NCBI GenBank assembly: GCA_002839645.1
Contig: PGYL01000017.1
Span: 1 to 47,708 of the forward strand
DNA length: 47,708 nucleotides
Reading direction: 5' to 3'
Source of the DNA: Methanomicrobiales archaeon HGW-Methanomicrobiales-2
GTDB taxonomy: Archaea; Halobacteriota; Methanomicrobia; Methanomicrobiales; Methanoculleaceae
The position numbers and the translations under genes were made by a program. Positions within the stretch are counted from its first letter, which is position 1, and every line of letters begins with the position of its first letter. The notes beneath the pieces are model-generated. The model saw nothing but the letters and a program-made list of their open reading frames with translations. It did no database searches and had not been told where the DNA came from. Below, in pieces: positions 33,230 through 45,280 of this stretch.

Positions 33230-34510
33230 ATGAAACTCCCTCACACTCCAGAATACTCTCCGGCAGATGTCAAAAAGGCCTGGAAGTATGCGGATACTAA
33301 CGATGTAATCGACGCAGTCTTCAACTATAACAAAAAATACCTGCACTGGGAAGAGCTGAAATGGCGCGATCTTCCGGTAGATCCCCTCTATGTCTGGATA
33401 CTGATGAAGACCTTCAGAGAGAGGGATATGAGATATATACCATTCGATGATCTTCAGCTGAAATATAATCTCCTGGACGATTTTCTCGAAAACCTTCACT
33501 TCCTTGATAAATCAGCAGCGGGAAGTATCTCATCGGGCCTCGATTCACTGCCTCACGACCGGGATCAGTTTATCATCAACTCCCTGATGGAGGAAGCGAT
33601 TGCATCGAGCCAGATCGAGGGAGCCGCAGTCACCAGGACAATTGCAAAAAAGATGCTCCGTGAAAAGAGGAAACCCGCCACTAAAGATGAGAGGATGATC
33701 CTGAATAACTATATCACGATGAAGAGGATCACTCAGATAAAAGATGAAGATCTAACCCCGGAGCTGATTTTACAGATTCACAAGACCATCACCCAGGATA
33801 CGCTCGAAGATCCGAAAGACGAAGAAAGATTCAGAGATAACAACGATATCAGGGTCTTTGATTTAAGAGGCAACATCTTACACACACCTCCCGATTTCGC
33901 GTTAATTGAAGACCTCATCGAAAAGCTCTGTGCTTTTGCAAATAACGACGACGGGCAATTCATCCACCCGGTAATTAAAGGCATTATCCTGCACTTCTTG
34001 ATCGGATACATACATCCGTTCAATGACGGAAACGGTCGGACTGCACGGAGCCTCTTCTACTGGTATATGCTCCGGAAAGACTACTGGCTTTTTGAATATA
34101 TGGCGGTATCGAGAGCGATAAAAGATACGAAGGGACAATATAAACTCGCATATCAGTATACCGAGAGTGATGAAAACGACCTCACGTATTTCATCCGCTA
34201 CAATCTCGCGGCAGTAAAAACCGCGGTCGACAATATCCTGAAATACATCGAGAAAAAGCAGAGAGAGAGCAAACAGGCGCTAAACATTCTTCAGAAGAGC
34301 GAAGGACTGAGTCTCCGTCAGGCAGAGATCATTAAATCTCTTATCAAAAAGCCTGATAAGCCGATCACGATCAAAGAGATCGTTGAGACATACCGCGTGG
34401 CCTACGCGACAGCGAGGAGTGATCTCTTTCATCTCGAAGAATCGGGATACCTGGCGAAACAGAAATCGGGCAAGGAGTACATCTTCCTATTCAGGGGTTT
34501 GAAGGAATAA
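33230..34510 (+). CDS. Fic-family protein with inhibitory motif and C-terminal winged helix
   Basis: A 426-aa Fic protein. The catalytic loop HPFNDGNGRTAR (near residues 261-272) matches HPFx[D/E]GNGRxxR, so AMP-transfer (or related NMP-transfer) activity is expected. An inhibitory helix motif SSQIEG (near residue 125) matches [S/T]xxxE[G/N] and marks a class II, self-inhibited Fic. The last 70 residues form a winged-helix-like DNA-binding domain. The gene runs straight into the dead start of an hsdR gene, suggesting it was once part of a type I restriction-modification operon, where fic genes are common. Full length and apparently intact. Confidence 0.9.
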   Translation: MKLPHTPEYSPADVKKAWKYADTNDVIDAVFNYNKKYLHWEELKWRDLPVDPLYVWILMKTFRERDMRYIPFDDLQLKYNLLDDFLENLHFLDKSAAGSISSGLDSLPHDRDQFIINSLMEEAIASSQIEGAAVTRTIAKKMLREKRKPATKDERMILNNYITMKRITQIKDEDLTPELILQIHKTITQDTLEDPKDEERFRDNNDIRVFDLRGNILHTPPDFALIEDLIEKLCAFANNDDGQFIHPVIKGIILHFLIGYIHPFNDGNGRTARSLFYWYMLRKDYWLFEYMAVSRAIKDTKGQYKLAYQYTESDENDLTYFIRYNLAAVKTAVDNILKYIEKKQRESKQALNILQKSEGLSLRQAEIIKSLIKKPDKPITIKEIVETYRVAYATARSDLFHLEESGYLAKQKSGKEYIFLFRGLKE

Positions 34511-34673
34511 ACCCCTACACATTCACCGAATCTGAAGTCGCAGAGGCTGCCCTTGCGTGGTTCGCCGGCCTCGGCTACGAGTTCCTCTCCGGGCCGGAAA
34601 GCCGGCTGCGGAACGCACCGATTACCACCAGCCGTTCCGCTCCCGGAGAGTCCGGGATTCGCTCTCAGTAACA
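34507..34673 (+). pseudogene. hsdR: 5' remnant of a type I restriction endonuclease subunit gene (hsdR)
   Basis: From 34507 the frame reads NPYTFTESEVAEAAL, then AWFAGLGYEFLSGPE, the standard N-terminus of HsdR. The continuation, AAERTDYHQ then RRVRDSL, is in another frame, so a small deletion near 34600 has shifted it. The rest of the gene (some 3 kb) is gone. The start position reads ATA (34507-34509); if base 34509 were G it would be ATG and would make an ATGA overlap with a fic TGA stop. Confidence 0.75.
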
Positions 34674-34683
34674 TGTGTCTGGC

Positions 34684-35248
34684 ATATCTACTTCTTGTTT
34701 GACCTGGAGGTCTACCGGGCCTGGAGCGGGGGGCCACGGTCTGGCTGGACGACGACCCGGACGACCCCGACGATGGCAGCAGTGCAGCAGATGTGCAGCA
34801 TATGTACAGCAACTGCTGCCAACAAGAGATCGACCGGAGCGAGGAAGATTCCGGAAAAGACGGTCAGGATCCTGATATAGATCGATCTAGGTACGTACAT
34901 GTACAGCAGAATGAGAGAACGGAGAGCATGGAGGATGAAGTTCCGGATGATGACCGGAGTGCCTGTGTTTTCCACACTGCTGTACATGAACCGGGGGATC
35001 CCATGCATCGGGGCGAAAAAACAGATCCAGTCCCGAATATGGCCGCACTCATTGGCAGCACCTGCTGTACATATGCTGCCAACGCTGCCAACATCAACCC
35101 CGCCGACTACATCCCCCTCCCGGTGGAGAGGGACGAGCCCTGCCACGTCTGCGGCCGGCGGCCGACGTCGTCGTTGAAACGGGGCGGCGGGCTCTACCTC
35201 TGCTACGATTGTTTGCGGATGGCAAAGCGGCTGGCGAGGGTGCGGTAG
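34684..35248 (+). pseudogene. 3' remnant of a primase-helicase (rep) gene related to the one at 42413
   Basis: The translated remnant aligns with the C-terminal 250 residues or so of the intact replication protein. YRAWSGG-ATVWLDDD lines up without gaps with YREWVAELAVWLEDE once one missing base is assumed in the G6 run at 34728-34733. Later matches are VQHM..NCCQQEID to LQHL..PCCKGVCK, AANAANINP to NAVANVANN, and a final zinc-ribbon-like CHVCGR...CYDCLRMAKRLARVR to CEICDT...CEGCYARLVREG. The helicase and primase parts are lost. A 151-codon open frame (34793-35248) survives but is not expected to function. It is followed at once by cas1 sequence. Confidence 0.7.
34781..35090. repeat. Cluster of TGTACAGCA motifs
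   Basis: The 9-mer TGTACAGCA occurs at 34803-34811 and 34900-34908, and inverted (TGCTGTACA) at 34978-34986 and 35063-35071. Half-matches (GTGCAGCA at about 34782 and 34792, TGCTGCC at about 34814, 35074 and 35083, GGCAGCA at about 35054) fill the space between. This lies within the decayed rep remnant, at the place where the intact rep gene has its TTGCAA cluster. Confidence 0.6.
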
Positions 35249-35865
35249 ACGCCGTGAACTGCATGCTGAACTACGGCTACTCGCTGCTGGAAGTGGAATG
35301 TTTGCGGGCCATCAACAGCACCGGCCTGGACGCGCACGTCGGGTTCCTCCACGAGATGCAGCCGGGGAAGTACAGTCTCGCCTACGACCTGCAGGAGCCC
35401 TTCAGGTTCCTGGTAGACCTCGCCGTAATCACGCTCATCGAGAGTGAGGCAATGGCGAAAGGTGACTTCATCAGGACCGAGAACTACAACCTCCGCCTCC
35501 GGCCGACCGGCGCACGCAAAGTCACCGAGGAAGTCAACAGGTGGTTTAACAAGGCAGTGGAGTATCAGGGGAAGGAATCCGCATGGAGTTATATCATCTT
35601 CCTTAAGACCAGAGAACTGGCACACTACCTCACCAGGAAGAAACGGAAACTCGACTTCTCAAGTCCCCCCTACGAGATCGACCGGCAGGACTCCGACGAG
35701 ATGCGCCGGAAGATACTTGCGATTCCGTATGCTGAGTGGAAGAAGATGGGGTTCTCCAAGGGGACGCTGCATTATCTGAAGGAAAACGCGCGGGACGGGA
35801 AGCCGTTCACGATGAACAAGCATGTGCGGGAGAGATTGAAGGAGTGGCCTATCTCTCACGATTGA
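35209..35865 (+). pseudogene. cas1: N-terminally truncated cas1
   Basis: From about 35245 the frame carries the catalytic helical domain of Cas1, the CRISPR integrase: VDAVNCMLNYGYSLL, GFLHEMQPGKYSLAYDLQEP with the metal-binding His (H48) and Asp (D60), RLRPTGARKV, and the C-terminal DRQDSDEMRRKI...FSKGTLHYLKENA block. The N-terminal beta domain and the catalytic Glu region are absent. The first dozen codons of the open frame are rep-remnant DNA read in another frame, so the junction lies at the rep stop (35246-35248). No cas2, effector gene or CRISPR array is in the window. It cannot be a working Cas1. Confidence 0.8.
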
Positions 35866-35900
35866 CCTTCCTAATTTTCTATGCAGTCAAACGCTTCGAT

Positions 35901-36416
35901 CTAGAATTTAAAGTCAGGTAATTTGACATCCCATGGATCTTTGGGTTTTGTCGTCTTTTTCTGTTTATTAGCAGGACTCTTTGTTGTTTTCTTTGGGGTT
36001 GAAGTTGCTTTTGTAGCCTTTCCGGCCGTTTTCTTTGGGGTTGGGTTGTCTGAAAGAGACGGAAAATTCTTTCTTTTATATATTTCCAGATCTTGCGTCC
36101 CCATTTTCAGGTTACATCGCGCACAGGTAGGTTCTAAATTTGTTACGCGAATACTTCCTCCCCTTGCAGCAGCTCGTTTATGCGCACAATGAAAATCATC
36201 GTTATAGATGGGTCTGCCACAAACGTAGCACTTTCCCGTTTTCCTAGTTGCAAACCGTTTTTCCCAGACCGCTTTTCTGACCTTTGGGGGTATTTTTTCA
36301 CGTTCTTTTCCGCTCCAAGGTGCTAAAGGGTCGCTGATTTTTATTGGGGTCACTTTAGGCACTGTTATCTTAGGAACTTTTATTATAGGAACACTTATGT
36401 CAAAATCGTTTGGCAT
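35901..36416 (-). CDS. HNH endonuclease-domain protein
   Basis: A 171-aa protein. Residues about 60-120 form an HNH/zinc fold: CYVCGRPI, then HCAHKRAAARGG, then NLEPTCARCNLKMG, giving two CxxC pairs around the catalytic His-Asn-His core. The N-terminus has an unusual alternating Ile/Val/Pro/Lys stretch, and the C-terminal 45 residues are Lys/Thr/Pro-rich and probably disordered. HNH proteins of this size can be restriction enzymes or homing-type or phage nucleases. It is convergent with the truncated cas1. A TATA-like element about 30 bases upstream (36440-36450) suggests a leaderless transcript. Confidence 0.8.
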   Translation of the reverse strand: MPNDFDISVPIIKVPKITVPKVTPIKISDPLAPWSGKEREKIPPKVRKAVWEKRFATRKTGKCYVCGRPIYNDDFHCAHKRAAARGGSIRVTNLEPTCARCNLKMGTQDLEIYKRKNFPSLSDNPTPKKTAGKATKATSTPKKTTKSPANKQKKTTKPKDPWDVKLPDFKF

Positions 36417-36764
36417 AGGTTCCCGATTATCTTAAAGGGGCATAAAACTATCTATTTTCCTGTCCCATCGCCATCTAGGCAATGAGAAATCGGATAGTGC
36501 TCAGAATATAACTGAAAAACTATTTCAGAGAATCTGACCGAATTACGTTGAGCAATAACCCACGTTCATAACAAAAACCCACAGTGAGAGTGGTTCCACT
36601 ATCAGTTGTTTATTAGAGCACTATCTGAAATCGGTGCCCTGCGAACACAAATGTCAGAGTTACCTTTGATATGCCCACAAATAACTCTATATTTTCTAGA
36701 AGCATACATTTATTCCCGCATATTAAAGATAACGTATTTATATTGGCTACACAACCATTTCCTT

Positions 36765-36929
36765 ATGAGAGAGATCATAAGTCTCATTCAAGCCTTCGCC
36801 ATATTCCTTGTCGGGATATATGTTATTTCCAAAATATCTGATACTCTAAATTACGATTTTGGATTTGTCTTTGTTGGAATATTTGCTGTTCTTGGCATTA
36901 TTATACTAATTAAAATGGTGACAGCGTAA
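36765..36929 (+). CDS. Small two-helix membrane protein
   Basis: A 54-aa protein that is essentially two transmembrane helices (ISLIQAFAIFLVGIYVI and FGFVFVGIFAVLGIIILI). ATG 36765 is chosen because the TATA box CGTATTTATATTG (36731-36743) lies about 27 bases before it; an earlier in-frame start at 36606 would place that box inside the gene. Its stop overlaps the start of the next gene by one base (TAATG). No family is recognised. It lies in the AT-rich block, unlike its GC-rich surroundings. Confidence 0.55.
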   Translation: MREIISLIQAFAIFLVGIYVISKISDTLNYDFGFVFVGIFAVLGIIILIKMVTA

Positions 36930-37414
36930 TGAGTGACAATACTGAAACGGTTGGAACCCCGGTTGTCACAAGGAATTATCCAAGCGGAGAGCCAAACAAA
37001 ACTAAAAACATTGAAATAACCCCTAAATACGTATATGATAGACTTGCAGGTTTCTTTTTTAGTACATGCGCTCTCGTCTTTTCAGTTCTGTCATTTGTTT
37101 CGATGGAGAATGACCCTATTCTCGTATACGTGTTTTACTCATTGTTTTTAATTGGAACTGTCGGATATTCCCTGCTACTAGGTGATTTCATTGGTTATTT
37201 TCTATTACATGCTTCTGATAGAATACGTCGGAGTTATGTTATTCACAAGAAGTTCTATGAATATGGGACAGGATGTATCGGGGTGCTTATAGGCTCAACT
37301 ATGTTATACCTTATGATGGGAGACAATATTATCCCAACAATAATTGGAGGGCTTTTCTTCTTATTAGTTAGTCTTTTCTTTGATTGGGTCAGGAAAAGGA
37401 ATTCAAAAGGTTAA
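36929..37414 (+). CDS. Four-helix membrane protein, unknown function
   Basis: A 161-aa protein with about 35 hydrophilic N-terminal residues and then two helical hairpins (residues about 40-85 and 110-155) separated by a basic cytoplasmic loop (RIRRSYVIHKK). It ends with RKRNSKG. It is co-transcribed with the two-helix protein encoded upstream (TAATG overlap). Small membrane pairs like this are found as effectors in defence islands, but no family is recognised here. Confidence 0.55.
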   Translation: MSDNTETVGTPVVTRNYPSGEPNKTKNIEITPKYVYDRLAGFFFSTCALVFSVLSFVSMENDPILVYVFYSLFLIGTVGYSLLLGDFIGYFLLHASDRIRRSYVIHKKFYEYGTGCIGVLIGSTMLYLMMGDNIIPTIIGGLFFLLVSLFFDWVRKRNSKG

Positions 37415-37727
37415 CATCTCATACCTAGGTGGTCACTAAACAGCATACCCTCACTCCATACATTAAGAAGGCCTATGAACAGTTCACCGACTAGGTTGAA
37501 AACTTCAAAACGATTTTTCCTCAATGCAAGTAATATGATTTGGGATTGCATTCCTCCAGCTCGTCATGCTAGGCGTCGGCAGAGACCGGTGCGACCCCGC
37601 CCTCTGCTGATGTGTGGCTTCGTCTCATAAAGGCATTTCCGGATAAATGCCCTGTTATCGTTGTCAATTCCCTTGAGTGCTATGAAAAAGAATTATATTT
37701 TGTTTGAATTATAAATCGTCTCCTCTA
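37415..37727. other. Intergenic stretch with a possible decayed frame
   Basis: No intact gene. A frame starting near 37431 reads VTKQHTLTPYIKKAYEQFTD, a stop, then VENFKTIFPQCK, which looks protein-like but is broken by an in-frame TAG; it could be a transposase or other relic. It also contains a GC-rich patch (about 37555-37620) unlike the AT-rich sequence on both sides. Confidence 0.3.
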
Positions 37728-38585
37728 TTAAGTAAAACCGACCCTCATAAATTGAAATTCAGGTTTGTCAATAACATCATTTAGTGACGAACATCCCGGG
37801 CACAAACCTTCACTGATCTGTTCAAGAAGTTCCTTTTGATGGCGGAGGTTAAATTCACCAGTAAATACCTTATTCATTTCGATAATCAACCTTTCCTCTA
37901 AATAGGCTAGAATAATGCCATAGCTCCCAATCTTAAGATTATAAATGTGATCTAATTCTTCCTTATTAATTGCGACGCCTAAAAGTGCTTTTGTCTCTTT
38001 ATTATCCTTCCAATTGAGGATGTTTTCACCTTTTCTTATGGATTCATATGTTTGAAACAATACCCTACTAATAAATCTTCTATAAACATTGTAAACCCTC
38101 CAGGCCTCATCGTTAATAAACGGTCTAAGTCTAGATTCTTTATCGCTCAATTCACTCAATTTGTATAGGAACTCTTCACGTTTAGGTAACTCTCCTACCC
38201 ACTCCTTTATAATTTCTTGAGTTTTAGGTTCCCTGATTTCCGAATCTAGAAAAATATCGTAGAATGAAAGAGGAGACTGAGACCTCTTCATTTCCATGGC
38301 AAATTCCCAGAGATCTGAAATTGCAGAAATCCTCTTTTTTTGTATCTCATCGCTTGATGATTTATAGATTTGGAGCAGATTTGAAAAGTTCTCCTCGTCT
38401 CTTCTCAAATGTGAACGTAATTCGCTTAACTCCCTTTCCTGCTTTTCTTTCCAAGATCTGTTTAATTTTTCAAGAATACCCTGTCCAAAAAACTTAACGC
38501 CAACACAAATTATACCCAAAGTGATTCCAGAGGATGTAATACTGGTAATTGCTAGGGAGACCTCGTCCATGATTGACTTATGCAA
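37728..38585 (-). CDS. Membrane-anchored protein with a coiled-coil region, unknown function
   Basis: A 285-aa protein. One N-terminal transmembrane helix (residues about 12-35, ITSSGITLGIICVGVKFFG) is followed by a charged, probably coiled-coil stretch (about 40-95) and a mainly helical cytoplasmic domain. Near the C-terminus a single CPGC pair occurs (about residues 262-265). No family is recognised. It is AT-rich and runs in the same direction as the TIR pair 330 bases upstream. ATG 38585 or 38570 (MDEVSL) could be the start. Confidence 0.55.
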   Translation of the reverse strand: MHKSIMDEVSLAITSITSSGITLGIICVGVKFFGQGILEKLNRSWKEKQERELSELRSHLRRDEENFSNLLQIYKSSSDEIQKKRISAISDLWEFAMEMKRSQSPLSFYDIFLDSEIREPKTQEIIKEWVGELPKREEFLYKLSELSDKESRLRPFINDEAWRVYNVYRRFISRVLFQTYESIRKGENILNWKDNKETKALLGVAINKEELDHIYNLKIGSYGIILAYLEERLIIEMNKVFTGEFNLRHQKELLEQISEGLCPGCSSLNDVIDKPEFQFMRVGFT

Positions 38586-38913
38586 TTACTATAATAAAAT
38601 GATATGATCTATGTGTCATACTTTAAGCGTTCATCCTCTATCTCTTGTTTAGATTATACATGCTTTTAGCAATTGTCGTTGAATGCGCTATTATTAGATT
38701 GAGAGCCATGCCTATCTTGGAATATGAAACCCCAAACGAGGAAGAGGAGCAGTCGCCGCACATGCACATGTCCACGGCGGCCTGTGTCGATCGACCATAT
38801 ATGTGGGGGGTCAAATCTGATCTGCAAAATCTGCAGTTTGATTTTAAAAATGTCCCACAGATGGTTTGAGCGAAATATATCAAAATATCAAGTGTATATT
38901 TAGTATTCTCTTA
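38586..38913. other. Intergenic stretch in the AT-rich island
   Basis: No gene supported. It probably holds the promoter of the 285-aa gene. A GC-richer patch at about 38755-38800 interrupts the AT-rich sequence. A 74-codon forward frame across it has no ribosome site or recognisable product. Confidence 0.4.
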
Positions 38914-39087
38914 TTATGGCGAATTAAGCGATCTAATGAATAATTCTGGTAACAGATCAGCTCTATGCATAGACAAGAGAATCTCAAGTGGATAGGCCCT
39001 TTTCTTTTTCTGTAATTCGAGAACAATTGTGTTTCTCTCTTCCTTTATACTGTAACTAGGAAGATACTCTTTCAATTTGTCCATCAT
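38914..39087 (-). CDS. 57-aa partner encoded directly behind the TIR gene
   Basis: A 57-aa protein, MMDKLKEYLPSYSIKEERN onward, ending SLNSP. It is charged, with predicted helices and a short beta-like TIVLELQ segment. Its ATG (39085-39087) follows the TAG of the TIR gene with no gap (TAGATGATG), so the two are translationally coupled. No family is recognised. Its position suggests a regulator, activator or immunity partner of the TIR protein (inference). Confidence 0.6.
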   Translation of the reverse strand: MMDKLKEYLPSYSIKEERNTIVLELQKKKRAYPLEILLSMHRADLLPELFIRSLNSP

Positions 39088-39786
39088 CTATTCAATCTCT
39101 TGATTGGGACCAATTTTTCTAGCAATTAATAATGCAAACTCTTCCGGAGTTTTCCTGTTTAGATCGATATAGCCTGTTGTAGTTCTGATTCCTGGAATTT
39201 CAGTTTGATCAAACCTTGCGGGCAGGATATAGTCCCTTCTTTCTTGGAAAGCTCTCGCTTGCGCACTTTCCCTTTCGTGATTCGTCCATAATTTGTCTTT
39301 ATAATATTGAGATATGAAAATTACAACGTAGTTTGCTTTTTTTTGGTAAACGTCATCTAAGTGAGTATATAGGTTTCTCCCCCAAAGATCTACTTCTGCG
39401 TATTTATCATAGAATACTTTTACTTCTAACTTGATGAGGTATTTAGCAACTTCCTCAACGTAAGATCTGTCTTCACCTGCGAAGGACAGAGCAACATCAT
39501 AGTCGGGCACAACGTATACGGAAGGTTGCTCAGGTAGTGCTTGATAACTCAACTCGACTTTCCTAAGTGTAGCATAGGAAACTCCCAATGCTCCAGCAGC
39601 CTGCTTCTTGCTGCCGCAATCTGCTACAAAATGACCTAATTGTTCTAATGCTTTATCCTTCCCAACCACATTCCCCCACGTTTCCCAGAAAAGAGTCCTG
39701 TATCCAGTGCTCACTTGCCCTCCACCGGTATACTTTTTATGAGATTCGTTAACCATATCTAAAAAAGACCACTTTGGATCAATCAA
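39088..39786 (-). CDS. TIR-domain protein with an N-terminal helix-turn-helix-like region
   Basis: A 232-aa protein. Residues about 48-82 look like a helix-turn-helix (SKKQAAGALGVSYATLRKVE). Residues about 95-225 form a TIR domain: YDVALSFAGEDRSYVEEVA, VFYDKYAEVDLWGRNL, VVIFISQYYKDKLWTNHE and GYIDL. E171 in WTNHE is the likely catalytic glutamate of NAD-cleaving TIR domains. Such proteins deplete NAD+ in antiphage defence. The reading frame starts at TTG 39786; ATG 39756 is the alternative. A TATA-like CTTTATTTAA at about 39810-39819 places the transcript start close to the TTG. The frame stays open upstream without a good start codon. Confidence 0.85.
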   Translation of the reverse strand: MIDPKWSFLDMVNESHKKYTGGGQVSTGYRTLFWETWGNVVGKDKALEQLGHFVADCGSKKQAAGALGVSYATLRKVELSYQALPEQPSVYVVPDYDVALSFAGEDRSYVEEVAKYLIKLEVKVFYDKYAEVDLWGRNLYTHLDDVYQKKANYVVIFISQYYKDKLWTNHERESAQARAFQERRDYILPARFDQTEIPGIRTTTGYIDLNRKTPEEFALLIARKIGPNQEIE

Positions 39787-40211
39787 GTCTTTCAGCCCCT
39801 GATACCGATTAAATAAAGTATAACTGATGCTTGTAAATAAACGGTCGAGAAGATAATCCTTTTGAATTATTTGGATTGATTACTGCCAAAAGATCACTTA
39901 ACAACCTGATTTTGCTGTCCTCTTGTCTCTCACCTTTGGCTTAACAAAATTCTTTGTCCTGTAATCATCATGAACAGTAATCCGCCTGCCCCAGATGATC
40001 TTCATCAATAACCCCCTCAAAACAAAATCCCCACCGGAGGCCTATATCGATCATCCAGGTGCATGATCGTCGGTACTGCACCGTACACGCTGATGATGAA
40101 AAGTCAGTACACCACTTGATCCCCACCCGCGCATCACGATGCCTACTTGGTGATCACGGTCAGGTGATGGATGTCAAATTTTTTCGTGTTACCTATAACC
40201 CAACCTAAAAA
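39787..40211. other. Intergenic stretch left of the att site
   Basis: No gene supported. It contains the promoter of the TIR gene (about 39806-39826), a 7-bp inverted repeat (CGATCAT 40048-40054, ATGATCG 40063-40069), and the T5 run (minus strand) just beyond the tRNA fragment's 3' end, probably the host tRNA gene's original terminator. Confidence 0.45.
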
Positions 40212-40267
40212 TGCGAGGAGAGGGATTCGAACCCGCGAACTCCTTCGAGAGTCGATCTTGAGTCGAC
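40212..40267 (-). other. attachment site: 3' fragment of a tRNA-Leu(CAA) gene
   Basis: On the minus strand the sequence runs from the anticodon stem-loop (GTCGA CTCAAGA TCGAC, anticodon CAA), through a long variable arm and a T-arm containing GGTTCGAATCCC, to the acceptor strand ending CTCGCA. The D-arm and 5' acceptor strand are absent, so it is not a functional gene. A T run follows its 3' end. One T-stem pair is mismatched. The integrase gene starts 9 bases to the right. This is the duplicated target end left when an element enters a tRNA gene. Confidence 0.8.
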
Positions 40268-40275
40268 ACTTACAC

Positions 40276-41478
40276 ATGGCGCAAGACACCTTCAAAAGCA
40301 AGACGCCTGAAGTCTATAAACGAATGGCCCTGGACCCGTACGAAAACAACAACCTCAAGGAACTCGATCAGCTGAACGACCTTGATCCGATAAATCACAG
40401 ACATCTCCAAGGGTACATCCACGACCTGGAACTCAAGCAGCTGAAAGACACAACAGTCCGGCACAAGCTCTGGGGGATATACCCCCTGCTTAAGGCCACT
40501 GCTTTCAAAGATGCCGTGACCATCACACGGATGGACCTCGAAGACTTTGTCATCAGGAGGCGAAGGACGTGCAGTCCCTTCACCCTATACGGCGAGATCC
40601 TTGAAACCAAGTTGTTCTTCCGCTGGCTCGTGCCGGAGAGAGAGAAGGAGTTGTTTAAGAACATCAAGAACGTACGCCCACGCAAGAAACTGCCGGTCGA
40701 GCAGCTCATTGTTCGCGACGACATCAAAACCCTTGTTGGGGCCTGCGACAACCAGCGGGATCGGGCACTCATTATGCTCCTGTGGGACTCCGGGTGCAGG
40801 ATCAGCGAAATACTCTCCCTCAATGTGGGCCGCGTGCAGTTCGACCGATACGGCGCTGTGGTAATCGTCGATGGGAAGACCGGCCGCCGCCGCCTGCGCC
40901 TCATAGACAGCGTTCCCGATCTTCAGCTCTGGTTGAACATGCACCCGCTTCGAACGGACCCGGCAGCCCCTCTCTTCCTGACCAATACCCGATTCGGGGT
41001 CGGTCGCAAGAGGTTGAATTCACGCACCGTCCAGAACCGCCTCAAGTATCTCCAGGAGACATTGAATCTGGGGAAACCCACCAATCCGCATGCCCTCCGA
41101 CACGGCAGGCTAACCGACCTCGCAAAGAAGGGATTCTCCGAGATGGAACTTCGTCTGATTGCCGGGTGGGAGAAGGGCAGTAACATGCCTGAAGTGTATG
41201 TACACCTCAGCGGTGGAGACATTGAAAGGAAGATGCTCGAAAAAGCCGGGTTTGTGGAGGCCACGGTGAATAAAGAACCCAGCCTTCAGCCGCGAGAGTG
41301 CCCCCGGTGCAAGGCCCTGAACACCTATGATGCACTGTTCTGCGCGAAGTGCTCTATGATACTCGTCGAAGAAGTGGCGAGGATGGTGGAGAGCAAGACG
41401 GAGAAGGCACAGCAGAGCTTTGATTACGACGCGGCGATTCAGAAGATGAGAGCAGACCTGGGCCTCCCGGCTCAATAA
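40276..41478 (+). CDS. int: Tyrosine recombinase/integrase with C-terminal zinc ribbon
   Basis: A 400-aa integrase. An N-terminal SAM-like core-binding domain covers about residues 20-130. The catalytic domain has Arg in GCRISEI (near residue 175), HALRHGRLT (HxxR, near 270) and the nucleophile Tyr in PEVYVHLSG (near 307). A zinc ribbon (CPRCKALNTY...CAKC) follows at about 335-360, as in many archaeal integrases. ATG 40276 is chosen because the longer frame upstream (from 40171) is read through the antisense of the tRNA fragment. It presumably recombines the tRNA-Leu att site beside it to insert or excise the element. An oligo-T run follows its stop. Confidence 0.92.
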   Translation: MAQDTFKSKTPEVYKRMALDPYENNNLKELDQLNDLDPINHRHLQGYIHDLELKQLKDTTVRHKLWGIYPLLKATAFKDAVTITRMDLEDFVIRRRRTCSPFTLYGEILETKLFFRWLVPEREKELFKNIKNVRPRKKLPVEQLIVRDDIKTLVGACDNQRDRALIMLLWDSGCRISEILSLNVGRVQFDRYGAVVIVDGKTGRRRLRLIDSVPDLQLWLNMHPLRTDPAAPLFLTNTRFGVGRKRLNSRTVQNRLKYLQETLNLGKPTNPHALRHGRLTDLAKKGFSEMELRLIAGWEKGSNMPEVYVHLSGGDIERKMLEKAGFVEATVNKEPSLQPRECPRCKALNTYDALFCAKCSMILVEEVARMVESKTEKAQQSFDYDAAIQKMRADLGLPAQ

Positions 41479-41489
41479 GACTCCACTCC

Positions 41490-41496
41490 TTTTTTT
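41490..41496 (+). terminator. Oligo-T terminator after the integrase gene
   Basis: T7 run 11 bases after the integrase stop. Confidence 0.55.
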
Positions 41497-41707
41497 AGTA
41501 AAACTCCCTGGGGCTGAATCGCAATGCTGCTTTCTATCGCGCTTGCTCCGTCGTCGTAGCAACTCTGCCGGTCTCCTGTGCAGTTGGCCCATGCACATAC
41601 ACCGAGCGCGGTTCTCGCTTAAATCACCCCTTGCCCACCTATTCTGTGTGTGCGAGAGGCCGACGGCCTAACGCCGATCCCATGGCATCTTCGCACAGGA
41701 GAACTGC

Positions 41708-41851
41708 ATGGAAGAGATCACCCAGGAAGTACTCGACCACATCCCGGACCCCATTGCAAAACTCGTCTGGGAGAAGTGGATCGCCGATGGTAAAGCCAGA
41801 TTGATAACGCCACACAACGAGGGAACGAAATGCAACGCACAGACAGGATAG
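41708..41851 (+). CDS. 47-aa element protein
   Basis: A 47-aa frame, MEEITQEVLDHIPDPIAKLV then a Trp-rich WEKWIADGKARL segment, with the look of a small DNA-binding or regulatory protein. AGGAGA lies 8-12 bases before the ATG. It overlaps the next gene by 22 bases and so heads the element's gene chain. A weak TATA-like TTAAAT lies at about 41619. No family is recognised. Confidence 0.5.
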   Translation: MEEITQEVLDHIPDPIAKLVWEKWIADGKARLITPHNEGTKCNAQTG

Positions 41852-42078
41852 ACGGCAGCCCACGGGATGAAGCGTGCACCAACATCGATTCACACGGGAC
41901 TGCCAACAACTCTTCTCCGTCCGGAGTTATAAGTCCAACTCCCGAGAAGCGAATGGCAGGTGTCGTCCCGCTCTACCTGGTCCAGCAGGTCGTGGCCGCC
42001 GAGATCGGCCGATACGGCCGGGCGGTGCGAGAGATCCACCGTCACAACCCTGACGGGACAGGAGGTGGCCGGCCATGA
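41830..42078 (+). CDS. 82-aa element protein
   Basis: An 82-aa frame with a hydrophilic N-terminal half and a C-terminal half (VVPLYLVQQVVAAEIGRYGR) that looks helical and DNA-binding-like. It overlaps the gene before it by 22 bases and the gene after it by ATGA (42075-42078). ATG 41953 (MAGVVPLYL) is a shorter alternative start. No family is recognised. Confidence 0.5.
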   Translation: MQRTDRIDGSPRDEACTNIDSHGTANNSSPSGVISPTPEKRMAGVVPLYLVQQVVAAEIGRYGRAVREIHRHNPDGTGGGRP

Positions 42079-42416
42079 CTGAACCCGGGACCCTCTCCCA
42101 CAGCACCGGCGGAGCGCTCCACATCGCCGTCGACGCCGAGCACTACCGGATCGAGGCTGAAGACCTCAAGAGCCTGCTCTTCTATGGCCGGGTAATTCCG
42201 ATCACCGAGGATCGTTCACGGACGACCCCCGGCGGGATCCTGGTCAGCGAGGTTGCCATCGAGGGGCACGCGGCGATGAACGCTTCGGGCAAAGCGGTGA
42301 TGCTCCATACCCGTGTCGGCTCCTACATCGTCCCGCTCATCAGTTTTCAGCGGGTCGCCCGCGGAGAGGCCATCTCTGCCCCGCTCTTTCCCCTCATCCC
42401 AGGGGTGACGGGATGA
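42075..42416 (+). CDS. 113-aa element protein, unknown function
   Basis: A 113-aa beta-rich protein (ALHIAVDAEHYRIE, LLFYGRVIPI, KAVMLHTRVGSYIVPL). It is joined to its neighbours by ATGA overlaps on both sides (42075-42078, 42413-42416), so it is made together with the replication protein and may assist it. No family is recognised. Confidence 0.6.
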   Translation: MTEPGTLSHSTGGALHIAVDAEHYRIEAEDLKSLLFYGRVIPITEDRSRTTPGGILVSEVAIEGHAAMNASGKAVMLHTRVGSYIVPLISFQRVARGEAISAPLFPLIPGVTG

Positions 42417-45280
42417 AAGACGCCATCGAGAACGTGGTCAACGTGCTCGCCCCCGACGGCGGCGTGGTCGAGGTCCGGGCGCTCGCCGACGGCGTCACCC
42501 ACTCCGGCTACTTCGACGACTACGAGGCACTCGCCCGGGCCGTCGAAGCGCTCGATGCCGACCCCTCGGTCGCCGGGATCTATGTCACCTTGAACAGCGT
42601 GAACCCGGCGCTCCTCGCCCGCCGGGCGAACCGGATCAAGCTGCGCCTCTCCCGCAAGGATGCCACGACCGCCGACGCCGACATCATTCGCCGGCGCTGG
42701 TTCCCGGTCGACATCGACCCGGTCCGGCCGAGCGGGGTCTCGTCGACCGACGCCGAGCACGACGCAGCGCTCGCTGCTGCGGAGCGGATCGCGGCCTACC
42801 TCGCCGAGCAGGGGTTCGGGGCGCCCATCCGGGCCGACTCGGGCAACGGTGCCCACCTCCTCTACCGGGTGGACCTCCCAAATGATGAGCCCTCGACCGC
42901 GCTTGTGAAGGGCTGCCTCACCACCCTCGATGCCCTCTTCTCCAACGAAGCCGTGACTGTCGATACCGCGAACCACAACGCCGCCCGGATCTGGAAACTC
43001 TACGGCACGCTCTCCCGGAAGGGTGACAATACTCCGGAGCGGCCCCACCGGCGGGCGAGGCTGCTCGCGGCTCCAGCGGAGATAAGTGTTGTTCCCCTGG
43101 AACTGTTGCAACATCTCGCGGGGCTCCTCCCCCGGGAAGAGCCTCCGCGGCAAAAGAAGGCAGGCGGCAACGGCCCCGGTATCGACCTTGCCGCCTGGCT
43201 CCTCGACCACGGCATCGCCGTCCGGTCGACGCGGCCCTACCAGGGCGGCACGCTCTTCACCCTCGAGGACTGCCCGTTCTCGTCGGCCCACAAGGACGGG
43301 GCCTTCACGATCCAGTTTGCAAACGGCGCCGTCTTCGCCGGCTGCCACCACGCAAGTTGCGGTGGAGGGGCGCAGCGCTGGCCGGAACTCCGGGAGATGT
43401 ACGAGCCGAAGAGACAGAGGGCAGAGAAGAAGCGGGAGGAGGCACCCGCCCCTCCCCCGGCCCCGGTGGAGGACGAGCACCGCCGCAGGGCGACGGAGAT
43501 CCTCCGGGACGGCGACCCGCTCGCCTTCCTCCTCGACACCTTCCACAAAGAGCACGTCGGTGACCGGACCGTCGCGGAGTGCCTGGCGATGTCCATCGCC
43601 TCGCAGTCCGTCGCGAACACGAAGGGGCTGCACGTCGCCATCTCCGGCAACTCCGGCAAGGGGAAGAGCCATGCCTGCGTAACGATGCTCAACCTCGTCC
43701 CGGCGGACTACAAACTCACCGGCACTGTGAGCAACAAAGCGCTCTACTACGCCGACGACCTCCGGCCGGGGACGGTGATCCTCTTTGACGACACATCGCT
43801 CTCAGACGACCTGCAGGAGGTCCTGAAGTCGGCCACCTCGTCCTTCCACGAGCCCATCGAGCACCGGACCGTCACGGCCGACCGGCAACTCCGGGTCTGT
43901 GCGATCCCTGAGCGGTGCGTCTGGTGGCTCGCGAAGGTCGAGAACCCCGGTGACGACCAGGTGATGAACCGGATGCTGACGGTCTGGATCGATGACTCGG
44001 CCGAGCAGGACCGGGCGGTGCTCGAGCACCTCAAGGAGACGGAGGCGAGCAGACCTACCAGGGGCGACGACCCGGATGTCCTCACCGCCCGGGCGCTCTG
44101 GTCGATCGTGAAGCAGCAGCGGATCTTCGTCCATATCCCCTTCGCCCGGCGGATAGGGTTCTCGAACGTCGCGAACCGCAGGAACCCCGCGATGCTCTTT
44201 GACCTGATCAAGTGCCACGCAGCGCTCCGGTTCCTGCAGCGGGAGGGGAAGGAGACGGAGGGTGAGGTCCGGATCGCGGCGACCCGGCAGGACTTCGATG
44301 CAGCCGTCCGCCTCTACGCTGCGATCAACCAGGAGGGCGGCGGGCAGGACTCAAAGATGACCCGGAACGAAGCGGCGGCGCTCGCCACCATCGCCCGGAT
44401 GGGCTGGGAGTCGTTTACGGTCCGGATGCTGCAGGAGGCGACGGGGTTGTCGTATCACCAGGTCCGGCGGATCCTGCAGGGCTACACCGCGAGGGGCATG
44501 ACCTACTGCGGGCTCCTGGAGAAGTGTCCTGCCATCAGTGTGGTGGACGCGACGGTCATCGACGAGAGCACCGGGACGACCGTCCGCCGGCACGAGTCCC
44601 ACTTCCAGTTCGACGCCGGGCGCTACCGGGAATGGGTGGCAGAGCTCGCGGTCTGGCTGGAGGATGAGGAAAAGGGGGAGGATGACTCCCCACCGCCTTC
44701 TGGTGACCATTTGCAACATCTCCAACCCTGTTGCAAAGGGGTGTGCAAACATGAGTGCAAAGAGATCGAGGGTGGGAGTTCTCAATGGGGTGAGGGGGAT
44801 TTGATGAACAAAGAGATTCCCGCAGAGATCAATCACGGCGTTCAGGGGTCGTTTGCAACAAATTCCAGATCACACAGTTCACCTGATCCTGCTCCACTGG
44901 AAGAGCACCATGACCTTGTGCAGGGCCGGAGTGTGCCGTGTGTTTCTGGACTTGTTGCAAACGAAACGATCGAAGGTGGCGATTTGACGATGAATCAAGG
45001 AAAATCCAGCGCAACGAGGAGTTCGAGCGTGAAAAGTGTTTGCACTCCTATTTGCACACCCCTTTGCAACGCGGTTGCAAATGTTGCAAACAATGTCCGG
45101 CCGCTCTCCGGGGTGCTTGACCCCAGGACGTTTGCCCGGGTGAAGGTCGACCTCGGCCGGTGCGAGATCTGCGATACCGCAAAAGCGGTCTACCGTTCAC
45201 GCGAGGCACAGACGCATATCTGTGAGGGGTGCTATGCCCGGCTGGTGCGGGAGGGGAACGCGAGGGAGGGGGTGCGGTGA
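42413..45280 (+). CDS. Plasmid/provirus replication protein: AEP primase fused to helicase
   Basis: A 955-aa replication protein. Residues about 60-235 form an archaeo-eukaryotic primase/polymerase: FPVDID (D100, D102), SGNGAHLLY (H148) and VDTANHNAARIWKLYG (D184). A Cys/His patch (about 285-325; CPFSSAHKDG...GCHHASCGG) resembles primase zinc motifs. A P-loop helicase follows, with Walker A GNSGKGKS (about 413-420) and Walker B VILFDD (about 453-458), then a winged-helix-like region (about 650-690). The last 200 residues are low-complexity with a terminal zinc ribbon (CEICDT...CEGC), and their DNA carries many TTGCAA words. ATGA overlap upstream, GTGA overlap downstream. Confidence 0.85.
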   Translation: MKDAIENVVNVLAPDGGVVEVRALADGVTHSGYFDDYEALARAVEALDADPSVAGIYVTLNSVNPALLARRANRIKLRLSRKDATTADADIIRRRWFPVDIDPVRPSGVSSTDAEHDAALAAAERIAAYLAEQGFGAPIRADSGNGAHLLYRVDLPNDEPSTALVKGCLTTLDALFSNEAVTVDTANHNAARIWKLYGTLSRKGDNTPERPHRRARLLAAPAEISVVPLELLQHLAGLLPREEPPRQKKAGGNGPGIDLAAWLLDHGIAVRSTRPYQGGTLFTLEDCPFSSAHKDGAFTIQFANGAVFAGCHHASCGGGAQRWPELREMYEPKRQRAEKKREEAPAPPPAPVEDEHRRRATEILRDGDPLAFLLDTFHKEHVGDRTVAECLAMSIASQSVANTKGLHVAISGNSGKGKSHACVTMLNLVPADYKLTGTVSNKALYYADDLRPGTVILFDDTSLSDDLQEVLKSATSSFHEPIEHRTVTADRQLRVCAIPERCVWWLAKVENPGDDQVMNRMLTVWIDDSAEQDRAVLEHLKETEASRPTRGDDPDVLTARALWSIVKQQRIFVHIPFARRIGFSNVANRRNPAMLFDLIKCHAALRFLQREGKETEGEVRIAATRQDFDAAVRLYAAINQEGGGQDSKMTRNEAAALATIARMGWESFTVRMLQEATGLSYHQVRRILQGYTARGMTYCGLLEKCPAISVVDATVIDESTGTTVRRHESHFQFDAGRYREWVAELAVWLEDEEKGEDDSPPPSGDHLQHLQPCCKGVCKHECKEIEGGSSQWGEGDLMNKEIPAEINHGVQGSFATNSRSHSSPDPAPLEEHHDLVQGRSVPCVSGLVANETIEGGDLTMNQGKSSATRSSSVKSVCTPICTPLCNAVANVANNVRPLSGVLDPRTFARVKVDLGRCEICDTAKAVYRSREAQTHICEGCYARLVREGNAREGVR
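44711..45090. repeat. Cluster of TTGCAA palindromes inside the rep gene
   Basis: The palindrome TTGCAA occurs at about 44711, 44731, 44853, 44955, 45065, 45075 and 45085. TGCA variants occur at about 44744, 44756, 45041 and 45052. The consensus is close to GTTGCAAAC. Two more lie earlier in the gene (about 43107 and 43318). The words fall in the disordered part of the protein, in a GC-rich gene where such an AT-containing hexamer should be rare. They are candidate binding sites for replication initiator or regulator (inference). Confidence 0.7.

Follow-up and report, generated by a model that had tools for sequence, protein, structure and literature searches.

Lineage-specific DNA words within the rep genes of Methanomicrobiales mobile elements form an intragenic, origin-like array apparently matched to the recognition helix of Rep

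The stretch of DNA analysed here (the window), 47,708 nucleotides of contig PGYL01000017.1 from Methanomicrobiales archaeon HGW-Methanomicrobiales-2, encodes Rep, the putative initiator of a mobile element, and carries the remnant of a second rep gene (Table 1). Rep incorporates, in this order, an AEP-like primase, an MCM-like ATPase, a winged helix, a disordered linker and a four-cysteine finger, and the DNA encoding the linker holds a short word repeated in both orientations. Rep, as the element's own initiator, probably uses this array as its binding platform and most likely as its replication origin. The argument draws on features legible in the sequences, namely the word itself, the geometry of its copies, the way it changes in step with the recognition helix, and its survival beyond the reading frame. 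Such an origin-like array, placed inside the gene and matched to Rep's recognition helix, appears to be real and widespread, with origin function as its best explanation.

In the intact gene, the hexamer TTGCAA occurs seven times at 44711-45089, all between the winged helix and the C-terminal finger, in agreement with the original prediction of at least seven copies in about 380 bases; the whole window contains 18 copies, compared to 7.1 by shuffling. The same prediction took TTGCAA for a symmetric, palindromic 6-bp site, which must be revised, as all seven copies form the core of an asymmetric 8-mer (GTTGCAAA/TTTGCAAC; order - + - + - + +) and the sites thus have an orientation. They span three codon phases, and are read in the protein as HLQH, CCKG, FATN, VANE, LCNA, VANV and VANN. 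The excess of TTGCAA is only moderate for a 6-mer, since 41/5000 synonymous-codon shuffles reach the seven copies observed (3.2 expected). The corresponding values are 1/5000 for GTTGCAAA (7 copies; 2.5 expected), 0/5000 for TTTGCA (11 copies; 5.6 expected) and 3/5000 for TGTACAGCA (4 copies; 0.9 expected), so that the counts of GTTGCAAA and TGTACAGCA lie beyond those of codon-preserving shuffles, while none of 5000 codon-order shuffles reach the observed count of any of the four words. As had been predicted, TGTACAGCA occurs four times in the remnant, twice per orientation; these are the only copies in the window (chance 0.11). A second remnant word, TGCTGCCA, is likewise present in four copies.

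The original prediction also called for a test of whether each homologous rep gene has its own over-represented word, and this is borne out in most of them. The first set comprised 80 loci and the window, with the end of the core present in 74 genes, and 69 linkers of at least 240 bases (67 relatives, the window gene and the remnant) were tested. The most frequent linker 7-mer exceeded synonymous shuffles at p ≤ 0.05 in 53/69 linkers and at p ≤ 0.01 in 45/69, as opposed to 10/246 and 3/246, respectively, of control windows of equal length taken upstream in the same genes. The held-out set comprised 88 further loci (80 fetched and eight from the source genome itself), of which 84 contained the end of the core; removing near-duplicates (≥ 98 %) reduced these to 71, and a testable linker was present in 64. 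Of these, 48/64 have their own linker word at p ≤ 0.05. Words found include GTTGCAAA, GGTTGTAAA, TGCTGCAA, TGCTGCCA, TGCTGTCA and TGCTGTACA, with TGCTGAAA, TGCTGTAAA, TGCTGAAGG, GGTGCAAA, TGCGGAAGT and TTGGAAGG as further examples. A free expectation-maximisation motif search drifted to degenerate motifs and seeded words were used instead. These were typed by hand for 68 loci, 50 of which were clear enough for the density and first co-change tests. In these 50 loci, 305 exact words occur in 28.4 kb of linker and 20 in the remaining 485.8 kb, a 261-fold difference in density which arises partly by construction, because the seed words were chosen from linkers. This bias does not affect the spacing or the shuffle results. 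The linkers of loci L029 and L030 are enlarged by tandem duplication of array units, with 17 exact word copies in L030. Judging by these sequences, a word proper to the lineage is present in many Reps, and the sites keep their positions when the word is rewritten.

Arrays with different words repeat a common order and spacing of sites. In many loci, the left cluster holds as many as four reverse sites, plus a forward one, in steps of 8-11 bp. About 87 bp beyond it stands a single reverse site; the single forward site lies 76-80 bp further, and the right cluster about 75 bp beyond that. A script anchored 42/68 site maps, and the reverse-to-forward spacing is 76-80 bp in 27/42 anchored loci, exactly 102 bp in 10/42 and elsewhere in 5/42, where only the narrowness of the spacing counts as evidence, because the script allowed only 70-110 bp. 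The exact 102-bp spacing is that of the window's clade (10 loci). For L029, L030 and L080 the anchor pair of the script differs from the pair judged equivalent by the analyst. When eight relatives carrying three different words are aligned, the sites are seen to be rewritten in concert at the same positions (TTTACAGCA / TTTTCAGCA / TTTGCAGCA). Furthermore, the 40 bp to the left of the single reverse site have a mean AT content of 0.63, compared to 0.47 for the linker, and are higher in 48/51 loci (16 of the 51 anchors were set by hand, two of those being equal to the script's). A slight excess of inverted repeats is also seen on that side of the reverse site (stem scores of 4.29 in 51 and 3.59 in 102; p = 0.002); the window does not show this excess. 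Palindromic or alternating tracts are found within 60 bp to the left of the single reverse site in L038, L084, L072, L075, L087 and L024; such tracts occupy the same place but differ in sequence, e.g. GATAGAGAGACGCGTCTCTCTCTC, CCACACACATGTGTGTGT and AGTACATATATATGTACA.

The word changes together with the recognition helix of Rep. Among the relatives, residues 681-683 YHQ and YSS occur with TG-CAA, YQQ, YQP and YLS with TG-AAA, YQK with TG-TCA, YMG with TG-TAA, N-G/A with AAG, and YYQ with CCA, TAC or CAA. This helix-word rule was fixed before the held-out words were computed, with the helices and first 60 linker residues already in view. Among the 40 held-out loci with p ≤ 0.05 and a helix covered by the rule, the top word is fitted in 29 (11.8 with shuffled labels; 0/20000 reach 29), and 35/40 are fitted when the top three words are allowed. 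In a tree-based co-change test (protein core aa 1-640; 85 taxa, 23 word changes and 525 columns), H682 ranks first of the 525 (z 5.3; 14 shared changes versus 4.3 expected) and Q683 fourth. The mean z of the recognition helix is 1.9, which is reached in 0/2000 permutations, and residues 694, 732, 710 and 711 of the same winged helix are also among the first eight, together with 283 and 85 from elsewhere. At the level of sequence, this points strongly, though indirectly, to specific binding of the word by the winged helix of Rep itself.

The array is also retained where it codes for nothing in rep. Five Reps (L053, L145, L101, L142 and L106), which form one clade, end about 45 aa after the winged helix, and their array runs across and beyond the stop codon, with 6-8 sites (at most one mismatch) in 440 bp. 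For the words of this clade, which were chosen by the analyst in the light of an earlier analysis, mononucleotide shuffles give about 0.3 sites per 440 bp. The reverse-forward gaps are 69-77 bp in the four early-stopping Reps with both single sites. This persistence argues that the array acts as DNA and not as peptide.

In the mechanism proposed here, the winged helix of Rep (recognition helix aa 681-689) would bind an 8-9 bp word in the DNA encoding its own linker, where this word is repeated about 7-12 times in both orientations. The sites appear to form an imperfect dyad of two outer clusters and two single inner sites at fixed distances, with the sites within the outer clusters lying about one helical turn apart in many relatives. 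Rep subunits, each with an AEP-like primase and MCM-like helicase, may assemble on the two clusters and melt the DNA between them, where most mapped relatives have an AT-rich tract next to the single reverse site, and two helicase rings would be loaded facing apart; physical binding, melting, helicase loading and origin activity are what we infer from this arrangement. A change of the recognition helix would be followed by rewriting of the site set at the same positions, giving many lineages their own word, and the protein may tolerate the residues imposed by the DNA words because the linker is disordered. It seems reasonably likely, moreover, that this is a self-referential, dual-coding origin, in which the linker exists largely for its DNA, repeated joint changes have affected the helix and the seven to twelve sites that belong to it, the helix-to-word code is partly readable, and the nucleoprotein geometry has outlived the reading frame where the protein is shortened.

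Several observations weigh against this interpretation. No significant word is found in 16/69 first-set and 16/64 held-out linkers, about a quarter of the linkers; some of these form a group whose helices read YHQ or YYQ. No word could be defined for a group to which L020, L023, L026, L095, L096 and L147-L149 belong, and the gapped words tried for the word-less group yielded none convincing for an array. The proposal of iteron-like, element-specific sites in a coding stretch tolerant of change thus withstands, for most homologues, both of the refuting conditions set with it (counts matching codon-preserving shuffles, and absence of a gene-specific word), with a clear word lacking in about a quarter of linkers. 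The helix-word rule fails by top word in 11/40 held-out loci, and L137, L165, L166, L169 and L172 (5/40) break it even by the top three words. YYQ helices pair with CCA, TAC or CAA, so that three helix residues do not fix the word, while L014 and L021/L044 share a helix and differ in word base 2. L142, with a YQQ helix, retains the CAA word of its YHQ relatives and is without the single reverse site. The words in the 85-taxon test were assigned by hand with the helices already seen, and were thus not blind, and the earlier 50-taxon test was weaker and not decisive for single columns. Finally, the gene in the window is itself without an AT-rich tract (0.50 versus 0.48), L124, an early-stopping Rep of another lineage, has no clear array, and the Orc1/Cdc6 genes near about 15 reps could mark another origin.

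The last of these points bears on an alternative that is unlikely but deserves weight, in which the array is bound by Rep for control (titration, handcuffing, copy number or autorepression) and the origin lies elsewhere, for example near an Orc1/Cdc6 gene. Binding specificity and origin function are separate claims, the window's own array has no AT-rich tract, and the presence of an Orc1/Cdc6 gene no more than 4.5 kb from about 15 reps leaves room for another origin. However, the 400 bp preceding rep contain no exact word in any of the 43 loci for which that DNA is available, so that there is no visible sign of the word acting in promoter repression, and the clusters, with an AT-rich tract in 48/51 loci, resemble the published origins of phage-inducible chromosomal islands (PICIs). 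It is improbable that the array serves another process of the element, for example segregation or packaging, with Rep or a partner varying alongside it as the reader. Two clusters with single sites would also suit looping or wrapping, but co-change peaks at Rep's own recognition helix, and no partition or packaging gene was found beside rep in a neighbour survey in which open reading frames (ORFs) were clustered and few were tested against family libraries. Word classes partly follow clades, as would be expected if the word-helix match were mostly shared ancestry, with a word and helix proper to each clade. This is very improbable given the first rank of residue 682 in the tree-based test and the pair L038/L084, which have 89 % identical cores, yet differ in helix (YQQ/YHQ) and word (AAA/CAA). 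That the repeats are a by-product of codon bias or of selection on the linker peptide (e.g. Cys or Gln motifs) is scarcely credible, for although residues such as CCQ, LQQ and VAN recur in the linkers and synonymous shuffles already yield 2.5 of the seven GTTGCAAA sites, the sites fall in three codon phases and on both strands, are more numerous than in synonymous shuffles for most linkers and continue past the stop codon in five Reps.

Two further suggestions of the original prediction concerned the role and the readers of the words. Incompatibility specificity was assessed by comparing same-genome pairs with identity-matched copies from different genomes, with the helix triplet standing for the word; coexisting copies share the triplet in 31/102 pairs, where 36.1 are expected. 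Incompatibility is thus unsupported as the driver of word change, since coexisting copies show no avoidance of a shared helix. The 47-, 82- and 113-aa neighbours, put forward as possible binders, are not needed.

The array would be a variant of the known iteron-initiator kind, and Rep with its array would, on the best reading, work like the O protein of phage lambda and the origins of PICIs and Staphylococcus aureus pathogenicity islands (SaPIs). Lambda O is not known to have helicase or primase domains, whereas Rep also carries primase and MCM-like helicase domains, and the large Rep family shows co-change of helix and word. In lambdoid phages, the initiator gene O holds its own iterons and an AT-rich region, and extra iterons add residues to the protein (PMC7466680). 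The iterons are thus inside the initiator gene, as in rep, but are situated mid-gene (PMC7466680), while the Rep array comprises two clusters and two single sites. The SaPI Rep recognises iterons just downstream of its own gene via its C-terminal domain (PMC7581432), and in several Escherichia coli PICI origins two iteron sets flank an AT-rich region (PMC6092414); the two sets have their counterpart in the left and right clusters of the site maps. The SaPI/PICI proteins and Cch of the staphylococcal cassette chromosome mec (SCCmec) share with Rep an initiator helicase (MCM-like for Cch) and a C-terminal DNA-binding domain, and primase and rep are sometimes fused (PMC7581432, PMC6092414). The SaPI origin is, however, directly downstream of rep, whereas the array described here is in the reading frame and spans the stop codon only in the five early-stopping Reps.

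Among archaeal systems, the Rep family probably matches arCOG07809, described in 2014 (PMC4158269), with which it was compared by described domain order. The order given there is primase, helicase, helix-turn-helix and zinc finger, and all four features are present in Rep. An example of the arCOG07809/Mpal_2033-type elements comes from the same archaeal order, and the elements are described as putatively integrative, with integrases in several (PMC4158269). Their helicase is named SF1, and DnaA-like AAA in a table, whereas the fold of Rep matches MCM; neither 'iteron' nor 'origin of replication' appears in the main text of that paper. ORF904 of the archaeal plasmid pRN1 is an initiator with an AEP primase, a helicase and a winged helix, like Rep, but differs in its SF3 helicase and in its origin, a stem-loop downstream of the gene (PMC4234260). 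Archaeal rolling-circle plasmids have their double-strand origin in the 5' coding region of rep, but are unlike Rep in having an HUH nicking initiator and a single nick site with no iteron array (PMC9569500). The circular plasmids pMTBMA4 and pMTB1 of Methanothermobacter encode a large protein matching Rep aa 381-704 with 24 % identity (E 3e-17 for pMTBMA4), and no match of these proteins to the primase domain was reported. A weak word, GGAAACA, follows the winged-helix match in L174 (pMTBMA4, 1711-2186) and L175 (pMTB1) (p = 0.006 and 0.010, respectively; k = 7), but one control window per gene scores as well. The original prediction knew of no description of such motif swapping in archaeal elements. 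Among the papers listed by literature searches, judged by title and the start of the abstract, none dealt with such arrays or with helix-word co-change in methanogen elements, although the intragenic origin of the archaeal rolling-circle plasmids (PMC9569500) and the intragenic iterons of lambdoid phages (PMC7466680) limit the claim.

The primase and ATPase assignments of Rep derive from comparison of its AlphaFold models using Foldseek. The best PDB matches of the N-terminal domain are AEP primase-polymerases (best E 2.7e-3, none below 0.001), while all 50 matches listed for the central ATPase are MCM or CMG chains (E from 4.9e-9). The four cysteines of the finger are invariant among the relatives compared. 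No Pfam or NCBIfam family covers the intact Rep, a profile search against PDB sequences with Rep gave nothing useful, and a search of viral contigs returned no Rep relative. The closest relatives are found in Methanoculleus and other Methanomicrobiales, and 95/150 sampled genomes of this order contain rep family matches. Three single-contig genomes (G033, G040 and G043) have eight or nine matches per chromosome, not all of full length. The primase domain alone (aa 5-330) has relatives on a Methanomethylovorans hollandica plasmid (Methanosarcinales; 46 % identity) and in a Bacteroides phage (38 % identity).

The source genome (G000) comprises 2.78 Mb in 69 contigs, with the window as contig C51. 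Over 174 aa, the rep remnant shares 80 % identity with L005, which is encoded on contig C44 of this genome. A C-terminal fragment of Cas1 begins right where the remnant ends (stop codon at 35246-35248), which suggests a junction of two broken genes. Fic/DOC, HNH and TIR-domain proteins are encoded near the remnant, and a candidate restriction-enzyme fragment at 34501-34668 was dropped, having no Pfam match. No contig-end overlaps of 31-200 bases were found among the loci fetched up to that test, and there is therefore no sign of circular contigs. Orc1/Cdc6-like genes lie within 4.5 kb of rep in L019, L023-L025, L028-L030, L033, L036, L038, L042, L045, L061, L081 and L091, either about 800-900 bp upstream or downstream on the other strand. 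The five checked by family search all match Orc1/Cdc6 or Cdc6-lid models, while a sixth AAA gene checked, beside L040, encodes a proteasomal ATPase.

Table 1 Coordinates of the rep gene, its site arrays, the rep remnant and neighbouring features in the window
Feature	Position	Strand	Basis or remark
Intact rep gene, 955 aa	42413..45280	+	ORF, AlphaFold models, Foldseek, invariant cysteines
Winged helix, aa 651-733	44363..44611	+	AlphaFold
Recognition helix, aa 681-689 (YHQVRRILQ)	44453..44479	+	AlphaFold; residues 682-683 co-change with word
Disordered linker, aa 753-899, housing the array	44669..45109	+	AlphaFold predicted local distance difference test score about 25
C-terminal finger region, aa 905-949	45125..45259	+	AlphaFold; invariant cysteines
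GTTGCAAA site 1	44710..44717	-	
GTTGCAAA site 2	44730..44737	+	
Two partial sites TGCAAA (44744-44749, 44756-44761)	44744..44761	+	Read from sequence
GTTGCAAA site 3, single reverse site	44852..44859	-	
GTTGCAAA site 4, single forward site	44954..44961	+	102 bp after site 3
Two partial sites TTTGCA (45039-45044, 45051-45056)	45039..45056	-	Read from sequence
GTTGCAAA site 5, right cluster	45063..45070	-	
GTTGCAAA site 6, right cluster	45074..45081	+	
GTTGCAAA site 7, right cluster	45083..45090	+	
Rep remnant (winged-helix end, linker, one finger)	34684..35248	+	Frame change near 34735
Remnant array overall	34774..35081	both	
TGTACAGCA in remnant	34803, 34900; 34978, 35063	+; -	
TGCTGCCA in remnant	34774, 34814, 35053, 35074	-, +, -, +	
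Tyrosine recombinase upstream of rep	40171..41478	+	Matches in 16/80 relative loci
113-aa ORF directly upstream of rep	42075..42416	+	Matches in 39/80 relative loci; no family
Fic/DOC protein	33230-34510		
Cas1 C-terminal fragment	35209-35865	+	Pfam E 8.5e-32
HNH protein	35901-36416	-	
TIR-domain protein	39088-39786	-	

To our knowledge, there is no mapped origin for this mobile-element family. If the interpretation of the array is correct, it would provide a predicted origin and an initiator code for a widespread family of mobile elements of the Methanomicrobiales, and candidate origins for plasmid tools in methanogens. The many natural helix-word pairs would likewise represent a set from which to learn how a winged helix chooses its site and how an initiator and its origin can change together without loss of function.

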